A DNA stretch of 64,000 nucleotides from Prescottella equi (lineage in GTDB: Bacteria; Actinomycetota; Actinomycetes; Mycobacteriales; Mycobacteriaceae), in assembly GCF_002094305.1 (NCBI RefSeq), contig NZ_LWTX01000002.1, positions 62,001 through 126,000 of the forward strand. Reading direction: 5' to 3'. This document shows positions 33,851 to 62,083 of the stretch, in pieces (position 1 is the first letter of the stretch; each line of letters starts with the position of its first letter). A program made the position numbers and the translations under genes. The notes beneath the pieces are model-generated. The model saw only the letters and a list, made by a program, of their open reading frames with translations, was not told where the DNA came from and ran no database searches.

Positions 33851-34618
33851 CTACGTGCCGAAGCGTCGGTGCCGGGCGGCGTAGTCGCGCAGCGCGCGCA
33901 GGAAGTCGACGCGCCGGAACTCGGGCCAGTAGGCCTCGGTGAACCAGATCTCCGAGTACGCGCTCTGCCACAGCAGGAAGCCGGACAGCCGCTGCTCCCC
34001 CGACGTCCGGATCACCAGGTCCGGATCGGGCTGGCCCGACGTGTACAGGTGCCCGTCGATACCTTCGACGCTCATCGCCTTGACGAGGTCGTCGCCGGTC
34101 AGCCCTGCAGCCAGCTTGTCGCGCAGCAGGGACTGGACGGCGTCGGCGATCTCCTGCCGGCCGCCGTAGCCGACCGCGACGTTGACGTGGGTGCCCGTGC
34201 GGCCACGGGTGCCCTCGGCGGCTTCCCGCAGCCGCCGCGCCTGATCCTCCGGCAGCAGGTCGAGCGTGCCGACGATCTTCACACTCCAGTTCTTGCCCGG
34301 CCCGGAGATCTCCTCGACCACCTCGGTGATGATCTCGAGCAGCGTGTCGAGCTCCTCGGGCTCGCGCCGCAGGTTCTCGGTGGACAGCAGGTAGATGGTG
34401 GCCATCTCGATCCCGGCCGCGTCGCACCAGCGCAGCAGTTCCGCGATCTTGCGCGCGCCCATCCGATGACCATGGCTGACGTCGGTGAATCCGTTCTCAC
34501 GCGCCCACCGGCGGTTGCCGTCGCACATCACCGCCACATGGCGCGGATGCTGTAAACCGTCGAGACGGCGCAGGAGCCGTCGCTCGTAGATGCTGTACAG
34601 CAGGCCGCGCAACTTCAC
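33851..34618 (-). CDS. uppS: cis-prenyl diphosphate synthase (UppS family)
   Basis: The 255-aa enzyme has the catalytic Asp in AVMCDGNRRWA, LLSTENLRR, and the C-terminal IRTSGEQRLSGFLLWQ-SAYSE. The family adds isoprene units in Z configuration. By position next to hemolysin III it corresponds to M. tuberculosis Rv1086, the short-chain (Z,E-farnesyl) synthase, rather than the decaprenyl synthase, but chain length cannot be read from the sequence alone. Confidence 0.92.
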   Translation of the reverse strand: MKLRGLLYSIYERRLLRRLDGLQHPRHVAVMCDGNRRWARENGFTDVSHGHRMGARKIAELLRWCDAAGIEMATIYLLSTENLRREPEELDTLLEIITEVVEEISGPGKNWSVKIVGTLDLLPEDQARRLREAAEGTRGRTGTHVNVAVGYGGRQEIADAVQSLLRDKLAAGLTGDDLVKAMSVEGIDGHLYTSGQPDPDLVIRTSGEQRLSGFLLWQSAYSEIWFTEAYWPEFRRVDFLRALRDYAARHRRFGT

Positions 34619-34719
34619 CTGGACATCACCACGGGATCAAAGACTACGCCGCGAACCTGCGGTGCCCGCGCCGAGCACCCGAGTGTCGCGAATGCCTCAG
34701 TACCGACCCCCTTCCAGGT

Positions 34720-34731
34720 TACGGTACCGTA
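34720..34731. promoter_or_regulatory. Palindromic site TACGGTACCGTA
   Basis: A 12-bp perfect palindrome is followed by AGGTTACTG, a partial direct copy of the GTTACGG half. It lies in the divergent uppS/hemolysin III promoter region and resembles a TetR-type operator. The regulator is unknown. Confidence 0.45.
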
Positions 34732-34795
34732 GGTTACTGTTGCGTAGCTTTTGCGGAGACTGTCCCATGGAGCGGAACGACAGACAGGGCACGAC

Positions 34796-35464
34796 ATGAC
34801 GGCACTCGGACTCGACGACCTCCCGGTCAAGCCCCGCATGCGCGGGTGGATCCACGCGTGGTCACTCGTGGTCGCCATCCTCGCGAGCGCCGTCCTGGTA
34901 TCGCTCGCCTTCACCGCCGAAGGGCCGCGCGCCGGAATCGCCACCCTCGTCTACGGCGTCACCGTCTGCGGCCTGTTCGCGGTGAGCACGACGTACCACC
35001 GGATCCACTGGCACACGGTTCGCGCGCGGACGTGGATGAAACGCGCCGACCACTCGATGATCTTCCTGTTCATCGCCGGCAGCTACACCCCGTTCGGACT
35101 GCTGGCACTGCCACCGCACACCGGCGCCGTCCTACTGACCGTCGTGTGGTGCGGCGCGCTTGCGGGCGTCGCACTGAAGATGCTCTGGCCCACCGCTCCT
35201 CGCTGGATCGGGGTCCCGCTGTATCTCCTGCTCGGCTGGGCGATCGTCCCGGTGGCCGGCGAACTCGTCGACCAGGCCGGCGTGGCACCGATGGTCCTGC
35301 TGGCCGTCGGCGGCGTCCTCTACAGCGCCGGCGCGGTCCTCTACGCCACCAAGTGGCCCAACCCGTGGCCGCAGACTTTCGGGCACCACGAGTTCTTCCA
35401 CGCCGCAACAGCGGTCGCGGCTCTGTGCCACTTCGTCGCGGTCTGCCTGGTGGTGTTCGGGTAG
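34796..35464 (+). CDS. Hemolysin III/PAQR-family membrane protein
   Basis: The 222-aa protein with seven hydrophobic segments carries the PAQR metal-site motifs STTYHR, KRADHSMIF and GHHEFFHAAT. The family includes adiponectin receptor relatives with hydrolase-like zinc sites; the bacterial role is unclear and haemolytic activity should not be assumed. The recalled counterpart is Rv1085c. It marks the left border of the accessory island that follows. Confidence 0.88.
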   Translation: MTALGLDDLPVKPRMRGWIHAWSLVVAILASAVLVSLAFTAEGPRAGIATLVYGVTVCGLFAVSTTYHRIHWHTVRARTWMKRADHSMIFLFIAGSYTPFGLLALPPHTGAVLLTVVWCGALAGVALKMLWPTAPRWIGVPLYLLLGWAIVPVAGELVDQAGVAPMVLLAVGGVLYSAGAVLYATKWPNPWPQTFGHHEFFHAATAVAALCHFVAVCLVVFG

Positions 35465-35541
35465 GCCCGAGCAACGCAAAACGGACCCGCCGGGCGAGTC
35501 GGTCTGCCTACCCTGTTCTGATCCGACGCGGGAGGAACAGT

Positions 35542-37059
35542 GTGACAACGACCGAAGGCACGGTGGGTGACGTCACCCGACTGGCCCCACAGGATGCCGA
35601 CTTCGTCTATCACGAGCGCGAGCACCACATCTCGAACTCGACGGGCATCTACCTCTTCGACACGACGGCCGAGACCACGTCGATCACACAGGCCGAGGCC
35701 ATCGATTGGATGCGTCCGCGTCTCGGCTACAGCGGAGTGTTCACCCGCCGGCTCCGGCACGTACCGTTCGCTCTCGACTATCCCTGTTGGGTCCCCGACC
35801 CCACCCTCGACCTCTCGAAGCACGTGATCGTCGAACGCGTCGACGGCCCCGGATGGGATGCGCTGCGCCACCACATCGCGCGGTTCTCCGGCAAGCCGCT
35901 GGATCTCACCCGCCCGCCGTGGCAGTTGCATTTCCTCACCGACGTCACCGGCATCGACGGCCTGCCCGACCGCATGACGGTCGCGGTTCTGCGCTGCCAC
36001 CACAGCTCCGGGGACGGTCTCGCGGCACGCGACCTGGCGTTGCGTATCTTCGGCCGCGCGGGCGATCACCCACCTGTTCCCCGACCGACGGCGAGGTGGT
36101 CCACGACCGCCGAATTCGTCCGCGCCGTCGGCCGATTGCCCCGGCAGTGGCGTGCCTTCCGCCGAGGACTCACCGAGTCCGGAGAAGGAGCACGCCGGGT
36201 TGCCGAGCAGATCCGATCCGGCGCGATCGCTCCGGCGCCTCCGCGGCGCCCCGCGACTCGCTTCAACACGGCCATCACCTCGGACCTCACTTTCGACGTC
36301 GTGAGCTTCTCACCGAGCGACATCCGCACCGTTCGATCCGCCGTCGAGGGCGCGACCTTCAACGACGTTCTGCTGGCGACGATTTCCGGCGCACTCGCCG
36401 GCTACCTCGCGGAGAAGGACGAGACACCGCCGAGTTCCCTCGCAGCACTGGTACCGATGTCGCTGCGCGGCACCCGTCCGGGGGTGGCGGACCATCCGGA
36501 CGGGAACCGCGCGAACCACTTGGCGCTGATGGCGGTGGACCTCCATACGGACATCGACGACCCGATCCAGCGACTGCGCGCCATCCACACTTCGGTCCGC
36601 GCCGAGAAGAATCGGCACCGTAATCCCGACGTCCAGGCGGCCGCTTCGAGAATCGACACATCGCCTGCTTGGCTGCTGAGTCTCGTCATACGACTGCAGA
36701 ACCTGCGCAATCGGTCCGACGACACTGTCGAAGCAGTCAACACGATGGTCAGCAACATCCCGTGGACCGGCGAGGACCTCGTCCTCGGAAATGCGCCCCT
36801 GGTGCGAAGCTTCGGCATTCTGGGAATCATCGACAGGGTCGGTTTGAGGCACCTGATCGTGTCCCATCACGACGACGAAATCGAGATCTCGTTCTGTGCC
36901 GACGCTGCAATGATGCCGGACACCGATCGCTACAAGGTTCTCCTCACGCAGTCATTCCGCGCACTGGTGGAATCTGCTGATCGCGCCGTGACCTCGGATA
37001 TCGCCGGACGTTCCTCTGATTTGCGAGAAGTTTCGCGAAACCGACCCATCCGCCCGTGA
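35542..37059 (+). CDS. WS/DGAT-family acyltransferase
   Basis: The 505-aa protein has a GTG start with GGAGGA (35531-35536). The acyltransferase motif HHxxxDG is present as CHHSSGDG (His153, His154, Asp158), preceded by the PPW motif (residues 125-127). The C-terminal half contains NDVLLATISGAL, as in WS/DGATs. These enzymes transfer acyl groups from acyl-CoA to alcohols or diacylglycerol. Two hairpins and the small peptide genes follow on the same strand. A role in lipidating peptides is speculative; triacylglycerol or wax ester synthesis is the default. Confidence 0.88.
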   Translation: MTTTEGTVGDVTRLAPQDADFVYHEREHHISNSTGIYLFDTTAETTSITQAEAIDWMRPRLGYSGVFTRRLRHVPFALDYPCWVPDPTLDLSKHVIVERVDGPGWDALRHHIARFSGKPLDLTRPPWQLHFLTDVTGIDGLPDRMTVAVLRCHHSSGDGLAARDLALRIFGRAGDHPPVPRPTARWSTTAEFVRAVGRLPRQWRAFRRGLTESGEGARRVAEQIRSGAIAPAPPRRPATRFNTAITSDLTFDVVSFSPSDIRTVRSAVEGATFNDVLLATISGALAGYLAEKDETPPSSLAALVPMSLRGTRPGVADHPDGNRANHLALMAVDLHTDIDDPIQRLRAIHTSVRAEKNRHRNPDVQAAASRIDTSPAWLLSLVIRLQNLRNRSDDTVEAVNTMVSNIPWTGEDLVLGNAPLVRSFGILGIIDRVGLRHLIVSHHDDEIEISFCADAAMMPDTDRYKVLLTQSFRALVESADRAVTSDIAGRSSDLREVSRNRPIRP

Positions 37060-37087
37060 TCCGTTGTTACCGTTCAGTTCGGATCAC
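37056..37087 (+). terminator. Hairpin at the WS/DGAT stop codon
   Basis: An 8-bp inverted repeat (GTGATCCG and complement) with a 16-nt loop spans the stop region. There is no clear T run, so termination is uncertain. Confidence 0.4.
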
Positions 37088-37126
37088 AGGCAATCAGCCC
37101 GTGATGCGCGGAAACCGGTGTGTCAT

Positions 37127-37150
37127 CCGAATCCCGTGTGCGGGATTCGG
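37127..37150 (+). promoter_or_regulatory. Hairpin in the leader of the first peptide gene
   Basis: CCGAATCCCG, loop TGTG, and its exact complement form a 10-bp stem ending 34 bp before the ATG at 37185. It may stop read-through from the acyltransferase gene or protect the 5' end of the peptide mRNA. Confidence 0.55.
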
Positions 37151-37184
37151 CGCCGGGTACACATAACGTCCTGAGGAGGCATAA

Positions 37185-37379
37185 ATGGGTTCACTCGAAG
37201 GAGTTCTCGGAGCGATCTTGGGAAATGAAGGGCTCGGCTCGCTCATGGCTGACGGCCTGCTCCCGGCGTTCCTCGGTTCGGCTCAGACGAGCATCACGGA
37301 AGCGCTTGCCGCCCTTGGTGAACTCGTCAACATCGGTTTCGGCTCGATCGACAGCTTCTCGGCCGCCCCGACGCCGTAG
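37185..37379 (+). CDS. Small acidic mycomembrane-peptide candidate 1 (64 aa)
   Basis: It begins MGSLEGVLGAILG and has a perfect GAGGAGG site (37173-37179) five bases before the ATG. It has six acidic and no basic residues, no Cys and no signal peptide. Hydrophobic residues recur every 3-4 positions, so amphipathic helices are likely. Ser is frequent. These traits match corynebacterial PorA/PorH-type peptides. The C-terminus is SAAPTP, unlike the FGS ends of later members. Confidence 0.72.
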   Translation: MGSLEGVLGAILGNEGLGSLMADGLLPAFLGSAQTSITEALAALGELVNIGFGSIDSFSAAPTP

Positions 37380-37485
37380 TACTCCGTCAGTTCACGATCG
37401 AGCACCCTAGTCGGCTGGAGTTCGTTTCGCGCCCCAGCCCACACGGCCCGTCGATCACTCAGATCCGCGACATCTAAGGAGAATC

Positions 37486-37602
37486 ATGGGATCCATCTAC
37501 GAAGCCCTCGGAGTTGTGACCGGGAGCGTGAGTGCACAGATCACGAAGGGCATCAATGCCCTCTTCACGCTGAGCGGCTACCCCGGCGGAATGCCGAAGT
37601 AG
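37486..37602 (+). CDS. Small mycomembrane-peptide candidate 2 (38 aa)
   Basis: It starts MGSIYEALGVV, with AAGGAGA (37476-37482) four bases before the ATG. It is the only member with a net positive charge (Glu6, Lys21, Lys38), and it ends GYPGGMPK. No signal peptide or Cys. Its hydrophobic pattern and MGS start tie it to the neighbouring peptides. The opposite charge could allow pairing with an acidic partner, as PorA and PorH pair in Corynebacterium; that is inference. Confidence 0.68.
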   Translation: MGSIYEALGVVTGSVSAQITKGINALFTLSGYPGGMPK

Positions 37603-37624
37603 CAAATCCGGACGCACCGCAATC

Positions 37625-37655
37625 GGGCCTCGCGCAATTGATTTGCGCGGGTCCC
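37625..37655 (+). terminator. Terminator after peptide 2
   Basis: The stem GGGcCTCGCGCAA against TTGCGCGGGtCCC has one mismatch and a short loop, and is followed by GTTTGCGTTTGG. It separates peptide genes 1-2 from the mycoloyltransferase gene. Confidence 0.65.
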
Positions 37656-37772
37656 GTTTGCGTTTGGCGCCTCGGCCTACTCAGCCCTGGCACTCGTGCG
37701 CGCCCGCGCCCACCGACCTCGTGCACCGCAGGCTCGGCGCACCTGAACAGCCTGCCCCGAAGGACATCGAGA

Positions 37773-38804
37773 ATGACGAGCCTCGGAACATTCCGACGAC
37801 GCAGCACGTCCACCCACCTCCGTCGCGCCGCGTGCACCCTCGCCGCGACAACTGCATTGACCACGATGTCGGTTGCCGCCGCTCCGTTCTCACTCGCCGA
37901 GACACCATCTCAGAGCACCCGAGCGTCGATAGTCGAGACGATCGACGTCACCGATCGTCTCCTTCTCCTTCAGGTCACTTCAGCGGCCATGGGTCGCGAC
38001 GTACCTGTGAACGTGATCGTGCCGGCGGACCGCTCCGAAGCGCGGGGTGTCTACTACCTGCTCGACGGCAACTCCGGTCAGGTCGACACCACCAACTGGC
38101 TCGATCCGCGCCGGGGAAATGCCGAAGAGTTCTTTGCGGACAAGAACGCCTACGTCGTCATGCCCGTCGGGGGAACAGGCAGCCTCTACTCCGACTGGGA
38201 GACCGAGCACCCGAAGTTCGGCAAGACGAAGTGGGAGACGTTCCTGACCGAGGAACTGCCCTCGGTCATCGATGCGCAGTTCGCTACCAATGGACGTAAC
38301 GTGATCGGCGGAATCTCCTCCGGTGCGCAGGGCGCACTGATGTTGGCGTCGAGGACGCCCGACCTATACACCGGCGCAGTCGGTTACAGCGGTTGCTATC
38401 TCACCGAAGGCCCCGTCGGCCGTGCGCTCACCGATCTGGTCGTGCTCAACGGCATGGCCAACTCCGAGATGATGTGGGGTCCGGAGGGCAGCGAGGCATG
38501 GCGTGAGCACGACCTCTTCCGCAATGCGTCCGCCCTCGCAGGCAAGAAGATCTATCTCTCCTCCGGCAACGGCCTACCCGGACCACACGAATCACTGAAT
38601 CACCAAGGCATCGCGCAGACCGTCATCGTGGGTGGACTTCTCGAAGCCGGCTCGAACCTGTGCACCGATCAACTTGCGCAGGCACTTCGGGACGCCAGTG
38701 TCGACGTCACCCGCAGCGCACAGCCCGTCGGCGTCCACGCGTGGCCGTACTGGCGCGACGAACTCGGCCGCTCGTGGCCCACCATCGAAGCAGCCCTCCG
38801 GTAG
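37773..38804 (+). CDS. Mycoloyltransferase, antigen 85 family
   Basis: The 343-aa product has an Arg-rich start, a long signal peptide (about 1-42, ending SVAAAP/SLAE) and the Ag85 alpha/beta hydrolase fold. The nucleophile Ser182 lies in GGISSGAQG, Glu273 in GNGLPGPHE and His322 in VHAWPYW, equivalent to the Ag85 Ser-Glu-His triad region. The family transfers mycolic acids from trehalose monomycolate to trehalose, arabinogalactan or proteins; C. glutamicum MytC acts on small porin peptides. An AAGGA site (37760-37764) supports the ATG. Its position among six tiny peptide genes suggests the MytC-like role. Confidence 0.88.
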   Translation: MTSLGTFRRRSTSTHLRRAACTLAATTALTTMSVAAAPFSLAETPSQSTRASIVETIDVTDRLLLLQVTSAAMGRDVPVNVIVPADRSEARGVYYLLDGNSGQVDTTNWLDPRRGNAEEFFADKNAYVVMPVGGTGSLYSDWETEHPKFGKTKWETFLTEELPSVIDAQFATNGRNVIGGISSGAQGALMLASRTPDLYTGAVGYSGCYLTEGPVGRALTDLVVLNGMANSEMMWGPEGSEAWREHDLFRNASALAGKKIYLSSGNGLPGPHESLNHQGIAQTVIVGGLLEAGSNLCTDQLAQALRDASVDVTRSAQPVGVHAWPYWRDELGRSWPTIEAALR

Positions 38805-39053
38805 CGCTCGGTCGACGAAGCGGTCGTGCCCGCAACGACTTCGGGCACATGGACTCTTGCGGTCACCTTATCGCTGTCGAACGTTCGACCAGTTTACGAA
38901 ACCGGAAGAAACGCCGCAGTTTCGACAGGACGAACCGACCGTTCGTTGCTACAGTTCGGTGCGTACGGGCAATTGCTCGTGCTGAACTCGGCACTCGCAT
39001 TTCTGTCGGGACCCCGGCGGAGATGCGCGGCCGCACACTGTCGGGAGTAGAAA

Positions 39054-39167
39054 ATGGGTTCCTTAGCGGACATCTTCGATTCCGTCCAGTCGATCGATCT
39101 GGCGGGCAGCACGGTCAAGGCCATCCTGGATTGGCTGGGTGGCATCGTCACGAGCAGTGGGGCCTGA
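39054..39167 (+). CDS. Small mycomembrane-peptide candidate 3 (37 aa)
   Basis: It starts MGSLADIFDSV, with GGGAG (39043-39047) before the ATG, and ends VTSSGA. It carries four Asp and one Lys and has no signal peptide or Cys. Hydrophobic spacing suggests one amphipathic helix broken by LAGS and GG. It shares SLAD with peptide 4. A 249-bp gap separates it from the mycoloyltransferase gene, enough for its own promoter. Confidence 0.7.
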   Translation: MGSLADIFDSVQSIDLAGSTVKAILDWLGGIVTSSGA

Positions 39168-39196
39168 TTCGGCCTGAGCTCGACCGGCGAACTGTG

Positions 39197-39217
39197 CGTG
39201 ATCGCGATGCGATCACG
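39197..39217 (+). promoter_or_regulatory. Hairpin between peptide genes 3 and 4
   Basis: CGTGATCGC, loop GAT, and its exact complement form a 9-bp stem without a T run. Processing or stabilising of the mRNA is as likely as termination. Confidence 0.5.
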
Positions 39218-39283
39218 ACCCGCTTCACATCAATCGACTACAGCGCCCTCAACGGGGGCCTGTAACAAATCCGGAGGTTGGAA

Positions 39284-39400
39284 ATGAGCTCGCTCGCAGA
39301 CCTGATCAAGATCCCCGTGATGAGCGTCGACGCCCTCGGTGTCGGCCTGCTCAATTCGTTCCGCAACTTGATCGATTACGCCGGCCTCGTCCTGAGCTGA
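39284..39400 (+). CDS. Small mycomembrane-peptide candidate 4 (38 aa)
   Basis: It starts MSSLADLIKIPV, with GGAGGT (39273-39278), and ends AGLVLS. It is the most hydrophobic member, with Asp6, Asp16 and Asp31 balanced by Lys9 and Arg27. No signal peptide or Cys. SLAD and a C-terminal Ser link it to peptides 3, 5 and 6. A 17-bp terminator stem follows 31 bp after the stop codon. Confidence 0.7.
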   Translation: MSSLADLIKIPVMSVDALGVGLLNSFRNLIDYAGLVLS

Positions 39401-39430
39401 GGTCGACGCCGATCGAGTACGTCGGCAGGA

Positions 39431-39468
39431 CAGCTGGGGCCCGTGCAGATATGCACGGGCCCCAGCTG
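39431..39468 (+). terminator. Strong intrinsic terminator after peptide 4
   Basis: A perfect 17-bp stem (starting CAGCTGGGGCCCGTGCA) with loop GATA is followed by TTTCCGCTTT. It ends the peptide 3-4 transcription unit. Confidence 0.9.
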
Positions 39469-39775
39469 TTTCCGCTTTACGGGACTGTAGTGCGCACCCA
39501 GAACGGGATACCGGCCCCTGATCCGATGGACAAATACCGGCGGGAAATCGGCCGCGTTGACGAAAAGCCAGAAAACGTCAGAGACGACGCGCGAAGAACC
39601 GCCAAAGGTACGTGAGGGATTCGCGCCGCGGTCCGGTTTCACGAATATCTGAAATCGCCACAAAAGATACCAACCGATTGCTAGCGTCTCACCCGTCACG
39701 AGTCGGACGACTCGCGGACAGATCGCGCACCGCTCGAGCAGTGGGGCGCCCACCGCACTACGCAAGGAGACTCAC
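39469..39775. other. Intergenic region, probable promoter of peptide genes 5-6
   Basis: About 300 bp lie between a strong terminator and the next peptide gene. No frame on the + strand looks coding. A 129-codon open frame on the - strand crosses the terminator and the preceding gene and is taken as chance. The segment is less GC-rich than its surroundings (for example AAATCGCCACAAAAGATACC near 39651), as expected for a promoter region. Confidence 0.5.
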
Positions 39776-39883
39776 ATGGGATCGCTCGAAGGCCTGTTCG
39801 CCAATTCATCGGCCGCGCTCGAGGACCTGTTCGACACCATCACCGGCTCGGTCGAGGGCATCTTCGGCATCTTCGGCAGCTGA
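39776..39883 (+). CDS. Small mycomembrane-peptide candidate 5 (35 aa)
   Basis: It starts MGSLEGLFANS, sharing MGSLEG with peptide 1, and ends GIFGIFGS. It has AAGGAGA (39764-39770) five bases before the ATG. It carries five acidic and no basic residues. Hydrophobic Leu, Phe and Ile recur at helical spacing with small residues opposite. The penultimate-Gly, terminal-Ser end FGS recurs in peptide 6. No signal peptide or Cys. Confidence 0.72.
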   Translation: MGSLEGLFANSSAALEDLFDTITGSVEGIFGIFGS

Positions 39884-40012
39884 GCCTGATTCGGCATCGG
39901 GGCAGTCGGGTTCATTCCTGAACCTGCGGCGCCCTCGCTCCTCCACGGAGCACCCCACCATATTTCGCAGGCCCGGCTCACTCCCCGGCCCGCCCTGTCT
40001 TGGAGGTACACC

Positions 40013-40159
40013 ATGGACTTCGGTTCTCTCACCGCCGCGATCGGCATCCCGTTCGGCAGTGCCGATCTCGTTCTCGCCGGCATCATCGACTCGGTCGACT
40101 ACGTGCTGTCCGGTATCACTGCCGTCGCCGGCAACGTGCTGAGCAGCTTCGGCTCCTGA
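40013..40159 (+). CDS. Small mycomembrane-peptide candidate 6 (48 aa)
   Basis: It starts MDFGSLTAAIG and ends VLSSFGS, with GGAGGT (40002-40007). It has four Asp and no basic residues. It contains the internal FGS at residues 14-16 as well as the terminal one. The central part (LVLAGIIDSVDYVLSGITAV) is a continuous amphipathic hydrophobic stretch long enough to span a membrane. It shares FGSL and FGS with the secreted protein at 271-1062. Confidence 0.72.
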   Translation: MDFGSLTAAIGIPFGSADLVLAGIIDSVDYVLSGITAVAGNVLSSFGS

Positions 40160-40170
40160 GCGACTGATTC

Positions 40171-40209
40171 GAGTTCGGCCCGTTCGGCATCGCCGAACGG
40201 GCCGAACTC
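40171..40209. terminator. Bidirectional terminator at the right end of the peptide island
   Basis: A perfect 18-bp stem (starting GAGTTCGGCCCG) has a 3-nt loop. Its right arm overlaps the stop codon of the convergent YyaL-like gene by two bases. Confidence 0.9.
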
Positions 40210-42232
40210 ATCTCTCGATCTGCGCGCGCAGATCCTCCGGGTCCGTCACCGGCCGATCACACACGAATCCCCGGCACACGTAGGCGGTGGGCGCCCCGTC
40301 GATCTGCGGCCGGTCCGCCAGCAGCGGCGTGGAATCCGCTCGCCCTGCCACCACCACAGCGCCGCCGGGCGCGAGAACCCGCGCCTGCATGGACAGCTCG
40401 GACGGCGCGTCCTCGGACACCGCGATCTGCAGGGGTCCGCGGACGAACGCCTCGGCGACGGCCAGCCAGTGCCCGGCGGATCGCGGTGCACGTTGCAGGG
40501 CCACCGAGGCACGATTCAGCGAGTCCGCGGCGGCCGCCGCGTACCTCGCCGACCGGTCCGCGGCCACCAGCGACGACGCCGTGAGCAGTGCCTCCGTCGT
40601 CACCGATGCCCCGGAGGGCGTCGCGCCGTCCAGCGGATCGCGGGGCCTGGCCACCAGCGTCTCGGCGTCGTCGGCGGTGTCGAACCAGCTTCCCGGCTCG
40701 TCGGGGTCGGCGAAGTGATCGATGGCAGTGTCCAGCAGTCCTGTTGCCGCCTCCAGCCACTCGGCCGCACCGGTTACCTGGTGCAGCGTCGACAATCCCG
40801 TCGCCAGGGCGCCGTAGTCCTCGAGAATCCCGGCCGGCTCCCCCACCGTCCCACCGAGCGACGCGCGCCGCAGCCGTCCGTCCACCAGGTGCGTCGACAG
40901 CACCATGTGCGCGCATTCCTCGGCGGCCTCGACCCAGTCGGCACGACCGAGCGCGGCCCCGGCCTCGGCGAGCGCGGTGATCGCCAGTCCGTTCCAGGCC
41001 GTGACGACCTTGTCGTCCCGCGCCGGCTGCGGACGCCGGGTTCGCGCGGCGAGTAGCCGTGAACGGATGTCGGCCAGCCGATCCGCGTCCAGCGGATCGG
41101 CGGGCAACTGCAGCACCGACGTGCCGCGCTCGAAGGTTCCGGTGTCGGTGACCGCGAACGTCTCGGCAGCCCACCGCCCGTCGTCGTCTCCGACGACGTC
41201 GGCGATCTGCTGCGCCGTCCACGCGTAGGTGAGGCCTTCCTCGCCGTCGGTGTCCGCGTCGAGTGCGGAGGCGAACGCCCCTGCCGCGGTGCGAAGGTCG
41301 CGCAGAAGGAAGTCGACGGTTTCCTCCGTCACGCGGCGTGCGAGCGCCGAACCGGTCCGACGGGCGAGGTGCGCATAGAACCGCACCAGCAAAGCGTTGT
41401 CGTAGAGCATCTTCTCGAAGTGCGGCACCACCCACTGGGTGTCCACCGAGTAGCGGGCGAAGCCGCCACCGAGCTGGTCGTAGATGCCCCCGCGGGCCAT
41501 CGCCTCCGCGGTGCGCTCGACCGCCCGCAGGGTCGGTCCGGCCGACGTCCGCTCGTAGGACCGCAGCAGTCCTTCGAGCAGCATCGACGGCGGGAACTTG
41601 GGCGCCCCGCCGAACCCGCCGTGATCGCGGTCCTCGTCGCGCAGCACGTTCGCAACGGCACCCGACAGCAGCGGGACGTCGATCGGCGCCCCACCCGCGG
41701 GCAGGGCGCTGCTGCTGCGACGCAGCTCCGCCACCACAGACGCGGCTGCGTCGTCCACATCACCGCGACGACTCCGCCACGTGTCGGTGACTGCGTGGAG
41801 CAGCTGCACGAACGACGGCATCCCGCCGCGCGGTTCCCGCGGGTAGTACGTACCGCAGTAGAACGGCGCACCGTCCGGGGTGAGGAAGCACGTCATGGGC
41901 CAGCCGCCCTGGCCCGTCATCGCGACCGTGGCGTTCATGTAGACGGCGTCGAGGTCGGGCCGCTCCTCGCGGTCGACCTTGATGCACACGAAGTACTCGT
42001 TCATCACGGCCGCCGTCGCGTCGTCCTCGAACGACTCGTGCGCCATGACATGGCACCAGTGGCAGGCCGCATAGCCGATGGACAGCAGGACCGGCACGTC
42101 CCTCTCGCGCGCCCACGCCAGCGCGTCCGGTCCCCACTGGTGCCAGTGGACCGGGTTGTCGGCGTGCTGACGCAGATACGGGCTGGTCGCCTCGCCGAGC
42201 GTGTTGCGCTCACGTCCCCCCGGCGAAGTCAC
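40208..42232 (-). CDS. Thioredoxin-domain protein of the YyaL/DUF255 family
   Basis: The 674-aa protein (GTG start) has an N-terminal thioredoxin-like domain with SPYLRQHADNPVHWHQW and the redox-like motif YAACHWCHVM, then an (alpha/alpha)6 barrel resembling N-acylglucosamine epimerases (GGIYDQLGGGFARYSVDTQWVVPHFEKMLYD). The function is unknown; some relatives are implicated in sugar or spermatogenesis-linked metabolism. It follows the small membrane protein and mca on the same strand with a short gap, matching recalled Rv1084-Rv1083-Rv1082. Confidence 0.9.
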   Translation of the reverse strand: MTSPGGRERNTLGEATSPYLRQHADNPVHWHQWGPDALAWARERDVPVLLSIGYAACHWCHVMAHESFEDDATAAVMNEYFVCIKVDREERPDLDAVYMNATVAMTGQGGWPMTCFLTPDGAPFYCGTYYPREPRGGMPSFVQLLHAVTDTWRSRRGDVDDAAASVVAELRRSSSALPAGGAPIDVPLLSGAVANVLRDEDRDHGGFGGAPKFPPSMLLEGLLRSYERTSAGPTLRAVERTAEAMARGGIYDQLGGGFARYSVDTQWVVPHFEKMLYDNALLVRFYAHLARRTGSALARRVTEETVDFLLRDLRTAAGAFASALDADTDGEEGLTYAWTAQQIADVVGDDDGRWAAETFAVTDTGTFERGTSVLQLPADPLDADRLADIRSRLLAARTRRPQPARDDKVVTAWNGLAITALAEAGAALGRADWVEAAEECAHMVLSTHLVDGRLRRASLGGTVGEPAGILEDYGALATGLSTLHQVTGAAEWLEAATGLLDTAIDHFADPDEPGSWFDTADDAETLVARPRDPLDGATPSGASVTTEALLTASSLVAADRSARYAAAAADSLNRASVALQRAPRSAGHWLAVAEAFVRGPLQIAVSEDAPSELSMQARVLAPGGAVVVAGRADSTPLLADRPQIDGAPTAYVCRGFVCDRPVTDPEDLRAQIER

Positions 42233-42240
42233 GACGCCCC

Positions 42241-42576
42241 CTAGCTCGCCGGCTTCGCAGGCGGGTCCTGCTCGGTCCGCGAATCCTGCGTCCTGTGCTC
42301 GGCCCTCTGCTTCGGCTCGGTGACCTCGGCGATCGTGGCGACCCCCAGATCGGTTCCCTCGTCCGCCGCCTGATCCGCCTCGGGGTGCTCGGGCTGGAAC
42401 GTGTCCGGGAGCTTCTTGAGCTGCTTGTTCATCGAACGAATCAACAGGACCGTGCCGACCAGGAGCGCAACGACGAGCACCAGCCCGAGCGGTGACGCCT
42501 TGCCGAACTCGGGCCCCTGCGGGCTGCTCGGGGTGCTCGTGCCCTGGGCGAGGATCTCCCACGCCAACGTCGTCAT
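42241..42576 (-). CDS. Small membrane protein next to mca (Rv1083-like)
   Basis: The 111-aa product starts at ATG 42576, sharing one base with the mca stop. One membrane helix (about residues 30-47, LGLVLVVALLVGTVLLI) is followed by a charged cytosolic tail rich in Glu, Pro and Gln. No domain is recognised. Tight coupling between mca and the YyaL-like gene suggests a shared operon. Confidence 0.8.
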   Translation of the reverse strand: MTTLAWEILAQGTSTPSSPQGPEFGKASPLGLVLVVALLVGTVLLIRSMNKQLKKLPDTFQPEHPEADQAADEGTDLGVATIAEVTEPKQRAEHRTQDSRTEQDPPAKPAS

Positions 42577-43454
42577 CACTGCTTCTCATCCTTCACGATG
42601 CCCGCGAACAGGTCGTTCTCCGGTATTGCGGTGTGTACCCGGGTCTTGGCCAACTCGAACTCCTCGGTCGGCCAGATCTTCTGCTGGATGTCGAGCGGCA
42701 CCGCGAAGAAGGACCCGTTGGGGTCGATCTGGGTCGCGTGGGCACGCAGCGCGTCGTCCCGCTGCGGGAAGTAGTCGCCGCACTCGATCTGCGTGGTGAC
42801 CCGCGCCATGAGGTCACCCTGCTCGGTCTTCCACTTCTTCAACCACTCGGCCATCGGGAAGTCCTCGCCGCGTCGCTCGTACTCCTCCTGGAACTGGACC
42901 AGACGCTTCCGGATGAATCCGTGCGAGTAGTAGACCTTCTGCACCTCCCACGGCGCACCGGCGTCCGGGAACTGCTCCGGATCGGCGGCCGCGTCGTACG
43001 CGGCCATCGACACCTCGTGGCACTTGATGTGGTCCGGGTGCGGGTAGCCGCCGTTCTCGTCGTACGTGGTCATCACGTGCGGGCGGAACTCGCGGATCAC
43101 CTTCACCAGCGCCTCGGTGGGCACCTCGAGAGGCTCGAGCGCAAAGCAACCCTCGGGCAGCGGCGGCTTGGGGTCGCCCTCCGGCAGTCCGGAGTCGACG
43201 AATCCGAGCCATGTCTGCCGCACCCCGAGGATGCGGGCGGCCTCGGCCATCTCCTCCTGCCGCACCTCGCTCATCCGCTCCCGGATGCCCGGCACGTCCA
43301 TCGCCGGGTTGAGGATGTCGCCACGCTCACCACCGGTGAGGGTCACCACGAGAACCTCGTTGCCCTCCGCGGCGTAGCGAGCCATCGTCGCAGCGCCCTT
43401 GCTCGACTCGTCGTCGGGATGGGCATGAACGGCCATGAGTCGGAATCCGCTCAC
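42576..43454 (-). CDS. mca: Mycothiol S-conjugate amidase
   Basis: The 292-aa zinc enzyme cleaves mycothiol conjugates of toxins to release a mercapturic acid. Motifs: [15 protein letters not shown] (zinc ligands His, Asp), HPDHIKCHE (third ligand) and GERGDILNP. The GTG at 43454 is preferred because GAGGTGA lies about 8 bp before it and homologues start at that point; an ATG ten codons upstream is less likely. It shows that the host makes mycothiol. Confidence 0.95.
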
Positions 43455-43660
43455 GTGTGTCTTCACCTCAGCTTCGCGTGTCACTGTCGTGGCGTGTCAC
43501 CTGCAGTGTCCGACCGCTACCACTCGCGGGGCGCAGTCGTCCTTCCCCTATAGTTCCACCTGGCACATACGACCGTCTGTCGTACCCCCGCTACGCGCGG
43601 TAAACGGCGACTCCGACGGCCGCACACAGCCCCCTTGACCGACGGCGCGAGAGCAGAGTG

Positions 43661-61642: not shown

Positions 61643-62083
61643 TCACACTCGGGCCGCGAAGTCGACGCGTTTCCGATCACTTTGCTGGGCAACGGCTTTT
61701 CCCGCTGCGCTTCGCGCACCGCCGACACAGCGTGCCGTTGTAGCGATGTGGCGCGCGCTTCGGTCGGTTCGACGGTGCACGTGACCGAGCCGACGGATCT
61801 CCCGCAGCCAGAAGTGCGCCGCGAGGGTCGTCTGCGCGTCGGCCGCCGAGCCGTCCGAGGGGCCGTCGACAACAGCGACAAGCGATTCCGCGAGCGCGGC
61901 GAGCTTGAGGTTGTTCGCCTGCGAATGCCGCAGCAACTGGTCCGCAGACTCGTCGGCGTCACATCGATAGAGGATTCCCACTATCTCCAGCGCGCGGGCA
62001 CGGACAGCAGCGGATCGGTTGTGCCGCAATCCGACTGGCGTCGAACTGTCGACATCCGACGACGGGATGAAATTGTGGTGCAT
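61643..62083 (-). CDS. Stand-alone ANTAR-domain RNA-binding protein
   Basis: The 146-aa product starts MHHNFIPSS with AAGGAAG 5-7 bp ahead. Residues about 25-75 fit the three-helix ANTAR domain ([41 protein letters not shown]), including the conserved late Ala and Leu positions. ANTAR proteins bind double-hexaloop RNA hairpins and block termination. No GAF or receiver domain is attached. The C-terminal half is basic and unrecognised. It is upstream of cspA on the same strand. Confidence 0.65.

Follow-up and report, generated by a model that had tools for sequence, protein, structure and literature searches.

In the literature consulted here, small helical, mycoloylated porins are known from Corynebacterium, and the channels identified in rhodococci belong to the MspA type (PMC9233653). 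In the closest described system the 57-residue PorH is encoded upstream of the 45-residue PorA; the two proteins are co-dependent, PorH being assembled at the surface only if PorA is present and one partner or both are mycoloylated, and they are predicted to form a five-plus-five helical ring (PMC12632848, a preprint). Mycoloylated sites are rich in Ser and Gly and follow no strict consensus (PMC11066868), and Ser15 of PorA falls within a short linker of a model (PMC11927696). The mycoloyltransferase MytC is distinguished by a loop that would determine its specificity for peptides. Nocardia, Gordonia and Rhodococcus have MytC orthologues, some of which lack activity in C. glutamicum, and the passage of PMC5310785 used here names no native substrates for them. 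In this work we analysed a locus of six short peptide genes flanking a mycoloyltransferase gene in the window, by which we mean the whole stretch of 64,000 nucleotides (64 kb) of Prescottella equi that was studied (positions 62,001 to 126,000 of NZ_LWTX01000002.1), part of contig C2 of a genome of 5.2 Mb.

We found the peptide genes to be conserved, to lie in pairs whose first members are related across pairs, as are their second members, and to be linked to mycoloyltransferases in several genera. With moderate confidence we explain the locus as three duplicated two-peptide cassettes around a mycoloyltransferase; one or both partners of a pair would be mycoloylated on Ser, and the two would form helical assemblies of the mycomembrane, in the simplest case hetero-oligomeric channels of the PorH/PorA kind, with a longer-loop MytC relative a more likely modifier than the enzyme encoded at the locus. 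The family would then consist of undescribed two-peptide helical mycomembrane proteins, probably O-mycoloylated and possibly pores. No description of such peptides in Rhodococcus was found by title or abstract opening among the open-access papers listed, subscription papers lying outside the scope of that search.

Six short genes and their conservation

The peptides were named by the starts of their genes as F1 (37185), F2 (37486), F5 (39054), F6 (39284), F7 (39776) and F8 (40013), the names F3 and F4 being kept for additional peptides that occur in two relatives and not in the window. All are encoded on the forward strand. F1 (37185..37379), a first peptide of 64 residues beginning MGSL, is called from its open reading frame (ORF), its matches in the family and its median ratio of nonsynonymous to synonymous substitution (dN/dS), and F2 (37486..37602), a second peptide of 38 residues beginning MGSI and containing LSG, from its ORF, an F2-type profile and median dN/dS. 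F5 (39054..39167, first peptide, 37 residues) is called from its ORF, its relatives and the kinship of the F5/F7 set with the F1 set, and F6 (39284..39400, second peptide, 38 residues, MSSL start and IPVMS stretch) from its ORF, its relatives and the kinship of the F6/F8 set with the F2/F4 set. F7 (39776..39883, first peptide, 35 residues) and F8 (40013..40159, second peptide, 48 residues, with an IPFGSAD stretch and related to F6) are each called from the ORF and relatives. The original prediction, made from the DNA letters, had given these same lengths (64, 38, 37, 38, 35 and 48 residues) and positions, and had described the peptides as free of Cys and mostly acidic, which they are: there is no Cys in any of the six, and five have a net negative charge (F1 -6, F2 +1, F5 -3, F6 -1, F7 -5, F8 -4). 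Its claim of a strong ribosome site for each gene holds for five of the six, which have a Shine-Dalgarno sequence (SD) of 5–6 nt, and fails for F5, which has GGAG only. By eye, no signal peptide is obvious in any of the six.

None of the six peptides reaches a Pfam cut-off, none has a match in NCBIfam at E ≤ 1 or in PHROGs at E ≤ 0.1, and none matches the MspA porin domain PF09203 at E ≤ 1. Alignments of F1-type members (A7) and F2-type members (A8), as well as alignment A3, gave no match to chains of the Protein Data Bank (PDB) at E ≤ 0.1, and an Rfam scan returned nothing. A match of F1 to CheC (E 0.016, below cut-off) was taken as chance.

High-GC DNA is rich in short ORFs, and the interval 34000–43500 holds 113 ORFs of at least 30 residues on its two strands, which would favour reading the six peptides as chance ORFs. 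We give that reading next to no credence, since start, SD, stop and sequence are conserved across species, dN/dS is 0.17–0.52 for F1, F2, F5 and F6, and hairpins stand at the pair ends; a chance origin is already unlikely for these four genes, F8 being the weakest case. Relatives of the peptide genes keep this order in the genomes fetched, and their start, SD and stop are conserved. Five of the six peptides satisfy a strict ORF filter (SD of at least 5, hydrophobic, 28–95 residues, no Cys, little Arg), which selects just two further ORFs elsewhere in the window, one of them a cold-shock protein by eye. Median dN/dS is 0.35 for F1, 0.42 for F2, 0.52 for F5, 0.17 for F6, 0.78 for F7 and 0.93 for F8. 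On these sequence grounds we regard the six ORFs as real genes.

Conservation in relatives, on which the original prediction had staked itself, was found in a family sample of 301 genomes from 31 genera, 14 of the genomes belonging to the same genus as the window. F1 matches 43 of the 301 genomes at E ≤ 0.01, with three weak matches that fall within long ORFs, and F2 matches 46, two of them weakly. The weak matches (F1 in G309, G135 and G221; F2 in G251 and G259) all lie inside ORFs of more than 400 codons with E above 1e-3 and were taken as chance. A wider F2-type profile matches 44 of the 301 genomes at E ≤ 0.001, spread over six of the 31 genera, and an F1 match is also present in 39 of these 44. 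Within the genus, relatives of both F1 and F2 adjoin the transferase in 10 of 14 genomes; one of the ten, G009 (79% complete), has neither F1 nor F2 with a clean start and was for this reason excluded from alignments A1 and A2. Plasmids gave no F1 match, and plasmid-borne transferases are all less than 60% identical.

Ser3 is invariant across the four peptide alignments and is near-universal, and a second Ser at position 13–14 is conserved in three of the four (F2/F4, F5/F7 and F6/F8). F2 in addition has a conserved LSG, of which SG is found in the wider F2 set. This conserved Ser pattern suggests that the peptides may be mycoloylated.

Two-gene cassettes with promoter-like boxes and hairpins

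Each of the three pairs is preceded, on the forward strand, by a match to TTGYTASMGT 88–111 nt upstream of F1, F5 or F7. These are the promoter-like extended -10 box TTGTTACCGT before F1F2 (37064..37073) and the promoter-like boxes TTGCTACAGT before F5F6 (38946..38955) and TTGCTAGCGT before F7F8 (39678..39687), the latter two loosely kept in relatives. TTGYTASMGT, a post hoc pattern derived from the three upstream alignments themselves, has these three matches and no others in the 64 kb window, where 0.09 would be expected. The sequence TTGTTACC is identical in all eight aligned rows upstream of F1 (the window and seven relatives).

When the inverted repeats of the 3.3 kb locus are ranked, the top three are those immediately 3' of F2, F6 and F8, again on the forward strand. 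The hairpin after F1F2 (37618..37662) is an inverted repeat with 20-nt arms, 85% paired, with a fold z of -2.9, and reaches about -30 kcal/mol or better in all eight loci (the window and seven relatives), while those after F5F6 (39430..39469; six of six loci folded) and F7F8 (40171..40209; seven of seven) each have an 18-bp perfect stem and a fold z of -8.2. Fold z is -1.2, -1.9 and -1.1 in the gaps within the pairs and -1.2 after the transferase, and across the loci folded the hairpin energies run from -30 to -44 kcal/mol after second peptides and from -10 to -31 kcal/mol after first peptides. Scans for sigma-70 promoters and T-run terminators found nothing at the pairs.

Profile comparison with hhalign relates the F5/F7 set to the F1 set (95.4%, E 1.9e-8) and the F6/F8 set to the F2/F4 set (90.1%, E 1.6e-6); between first and second peptides the alignment is limited to 11 columns at the MGS start (72.3%). 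Nine F6/F8-like copies are located away from the locus, and all eight that were inspected have an F5/F7-like ORF just upstream, the upstream match in L258 being weak and the ninth copy (G010 contig 9) being left out. From the three-pair structure and these off-locus pairs we conclude that the unit is a duplicated two-peptide cassette. A fourth pair, F3F4, occurs in two loci of the same genus (L055:5465-5845, 52 and 41 residues; L057:5441-5823, 52 and 40 residues), in both cases between F1F2 and the transferase, so that up to four pairs stand at one locus (L055). The sequence signs of two small genes per transcription unit, as in PorA/PorH, namely box, pair and hairpin, are present for three pairs, and each cassette is probably transcribed independently as a unit of two genes, from a promoter of its own and up to a terminator hairpin of its own. 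The original prediction was right that more peptides stand together here than in C. glutamicum (three pairs versus the porH-porA pair); the pairing, the promoter boxes, the hairpins, the F3F4 pair and the wider spread go beyond it.

Linkage to mycoloyltransferases

Neighbourhoods were examined in 40 of the 44 genomes with a wider F2-type match (G152, G182, G191 and G245 were left out). In 39 of the 40, F2 is preceded by an F1-like ORF at no more than 300 nt, the exception being G009, where it was not called, and a mycoloyltransferase lies no more than 1500 nt downstream of the F1F2-type pair in 37; in G010 and G012 it is F3F4 that stands between F1F2 and the transferase. The three genomes with no downstream transferase (G209, G282 and G236) all belong to one genus, g23. 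In g23, pairs that lack a transferase are also seen as second clusters. Four loci of this genus (L130, L137, L140 and L141) have extra F1/F2-type pairs of 61–63 and 47–48 residues, L140 and L141 each having two such pairs in tandem, and none has a transferase within the fetched stretch. In the window's own genus the transferase and F1F2 occur together in 10 of 14 genomes and neither occurs in the other 4, the transferase of G009 being seen only as a fragment.

The transferases that follow the pair are of two kinds: TfA, which is related to MytC, and TfB, the orthologue of the window's enzyme. TfA was found in g22 and g46 loci, in the two fetched g23 loci that have a transferase, in G002 and G003 of the window's genus, and in two of the three g21 genomes; TfB stands alongside it in all of these except the g22 loci. 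TfB occurs alone in most of the window's genus, in G098 (g21) and in G076 (g13), and nine g22 loci have the pair with TfA and no TfB in the fetched stretch. Of the five other genera examined, four have TfA next to the pair; at the window locus it is absent.

A further short ORF of the window's own genome, at C5:295777-295914 on the reverse strand (L198:3890-4030), has 46 residues, begins MGSSEIIAIL, ends in a Ser-rich tail, has a good SD and is convergent to another mycoloyltransferase gene; it may encode a ProtX-like partner. Of 41 genomes searched, 12 have a match, and all belong to the same genus (12 of 14); two of the matches contain an internal stop, and in nine of the 12 genomes the ORF is visible beside a listed transferase. 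Four more short ORFs preceded by an SD lie near mycoloyltransferases and resemble the pair peptides (L031:907-1044, 45 residues; L032:1022-1267, 81; L044:8930-9022, 30; L023:2575-2682, 35), and two contain a GSIDFFS/GSMESFGS stretch that recalls the tail of F1; only L023 is from the window's genus.

The transferase of the window and MytC

The transferase gene of the window (37773..38804, forward strand) encodes 343 residues with a PF00756 match (E 1.3e-31), belonging to the Antigen 85 superfamily, and has a signal-like N terminus by eye. Its Ser182, Glu291 and His322 align with the S, E and H columns of the MytC triad, which bears out the predicted Ag85-type transferase with an intact Ser-Glu-His set. 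It shares superfamily and triad with Cmt1/MytC (PDB 4h18, 8qhf), its best solved relative (172 bits, followed by PS1/MytA with 156).

The original prediction further cast this enzyme as the MytC equivalent that mycoloylates the flanking peptides, and we consider this unlikely. Its adjacency to the peptides, the top score of Cmt1/MytC among solved structures, the joint presence or absence of transferase and F1F2 in all 14 same-genus genomes, and the TfB-type enzyme standing alone after the pair in G076 and G098 all speak for it. Against it, a tree of 66 rows (L043 and L128 are the same species, and L128 was dropped) does not group the window TfB with the clade formed by MytC, TfA and the genome's own paralogues L196, L197, L199 and L200; this MytC/TfA clade has 28 rows and a support of 100/98, and the branch dividing off TfB one of 99/93. 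Forcing TfB and MytC together is disfavoured by an approximately unbiased (AU) test with p 0.0085, a value that is too favourable because the rows were named after the tree was known. Between chosen anchors there are 45 residues in MytC, 40–44 in TfA (16 of 16), 33 in TfB (15 of 15 and the window enzyme) and 32 in MytA, a stretch that we take to correspond to the published MytC loop, for which the PMC5310785 passage gives no residues. That the nine g22 loci combine the pair with TfA and lack TfB in the fetched stretch likewise argues against the equivalence. The window's transferase, classed here as TfB from PF00756, tree and loop length, is thus probably not the MytC equivalent, lying outside the clade and having the shorter loop, whereas TfA of other rhodococci shares both the clade and the longer loop.

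The own paralogue L196 is a neighbour of TfA in the tree. Since G002 and G003 carry both an orthologue of L196 (86 and 84% identical) and TfA (51 and 52%), L196 is a gene separate from TfA.

Comparison with known mycomembrane proteins

The likeness of the pairs to PorH/PorA lies in two adjacent small genes, the longer first in F1F2, in products of tens of residues with no obvious signal peptide, and in the acidic, Cys-free composition that the PorH and PorA proteins compared also have. In Corynebacterium such peptides are modified by a mycoloyltransferase; here the peptides are linked to one in the genome. The differences are the up to four pairs together, the N-terminal MGS motif, the position beside mycoloyltransferase genes rather than between groEL2 and ppk2, and the lack of sequence homology. 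The NCBIfam models NF033925, NF033937 and NF033938 match none of the 15 F1-type (A7) or 15 F2-type (A8) members at E ≤ 0.1, whereas controls from groEL2-ppk2 loci match at that threshold for 11 of 11 PorH and 9 of 13 PorA, these controls having been chosen by eye from 20 loci (the PorH of L179, as well as L187, L188 and L189, were among those omitted). A search with a C. glutamicum PorA query had no match in the 301 genomes and is uninformative, as no positive control matched. Of the equivalent porin system proposed originally, the conserved genes, the mycoloyltransferase linkage and the porH-porA-like layout stand; homology to PorA/PorH was not found.

ProtX of C. glutamicum, a small, predicted helical and mycoloylated mycomembrane protein (PMC5310785, PMC9671496), can be likened to the peptides by description only, and its mycoloylated Ser is penultimate (PMC5310785). 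The peptides could be mycomembrane components other than pores, i.e., small mycoloylated, wall-linked structural or surface peptides like ProtX, serving as wall ties or as contact sites, e.g., for phages. Passages of PMC12632848 (a preprint) and PMC9671496 describe PorH and ProtX as wall-linked, and ProtX as acting like a receptor for phages, no pore having been proven for it; the rapid evolution of F7 and F8 fits exposed surface proteins, and the amphipathicity of the peptides is weak. We judge this the less probable course, at something like one chance in a few, because the consistent two-gene pairing is the layout of the PorH/PorA channel, unlike a single gene such as protX.

Membrane-active toxins or leaderless two-peptide bacteriocins would also be short, hydrophobic, paired and leaderless, and one of the 15 F1-type members matches the TigB model of ribosomally synthesized and post-translationally modified peptide precursors (E 0.035), which was taken as chance. 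We hold this identity to be very improbable: five of the six peptides are acidic, their order beside the transferase is kept in relatives, PHROGs has no match for any of them, and by eye no immunity or transporter gene was recognised among the neighbouring ORFs, most of which had no family scan. These neighbours include, upstream, a wax ester synthase/diacylglycerol acyltransferase (WS/DGAT) gene (PF03007, PF06974; 35542-37059, start uncertain) and, downstream, a minus-strand ORF (40208-42589). The WS/DGAT gene ends 4 nt before the promoter-like box of F1F2.

Porins of the MspA type (PF09203) are mycomembrane channels of related organisms, and PorARr and PorBRr are likewise encoded by adjacent genes (PMC9233653). 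They differ from the peptides in their size of about 200 residues or more and their Sec signal peptides, and have no Pfam kinship with them.

Discussion

Under the explanation that we favour, the peptides would leave the cell without a signal peptide, mycolic acid would be placed on Ser of one or both partners, with Ser3, the second Ser at 13–14 and the LSG serine of F2 as candidate acceptors, and both partners would then assemble as mycomembrane helices, most simply into hetero-oligomeric channels as PorH/PorA do. A longer-loop MytC relative is favoured over the window's TfB as the modifying enzyme, TfA standing beside the pair in other genera; in the window's organism this enzyme may perhaps be a paralogue encoded elsewhere in the genome.

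Several observations weigh against this explanation. Profile comparison links the peptides to PorA/PorH at only 0.4–4.2%, whereas the control comparison of PorH with PorA gives 76.7%. The z of the hydrophobic moment is 1.3–2.5 for the peptides versus 3.1 and 3.3 for one PorH and one PorA, and AlphaFold2 models of F1 and F2 as single chains are all helix at low confidence (predicted local distance difference test 65 and 68; predicted template modelling score 0.30 and 0.33). The locus's own enzyme is not of the MytC type. F7 and F8 are fast-evolving and near neutrality, and a third-position excess is absent in F8 alone, which we keep as a gene because of its kinship with F6, its position and a frame open in seven loci. 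Ser3 is missing from F3 of L057 (F3 is not in the alignments), the second Ser is not retained in the wider F2 set, and the ranges of hairpin energy after first and second peptides just touch, through F7 of G009. Finally, the own genome has one MspA-type porin match (C2:222645-223214), and because such a porin is also encoded the peptides need not be the main channel.

The peptides of this undescribed family most likely function as PorH/PorA-like or ProtX-like proteins. A second channel of R. equi is reported to be a small protein, and the channel of R. erythropolis is reportedly likewise small. R. equi is cited with anion-selective channels besides cation-selective ones (PMC9233653).

The locus supplies candidate substrates for the MytC orthologues of rhodococci, with transferases adjacent, and it bears on how signal-less peptides cross the plasma membrane. 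The pairs that occur with TfA, with TfB, with both and with neither form a natural comparison set for asking which transferase modifies which peptide. More tentatively, and with somewhat less than even confidence, we suggest that rhodococci may have independently evolved a class of helical mycomembrane channels made of two peptides, which have no sequence relationship to PorA/PorH and have multiplied into several interchangeable pairs at one locus, that these would be the missing substrates of the Rhodococcus MytC orthologues, and that one of the pairs may be the second, anion-selective channel of R. equi.

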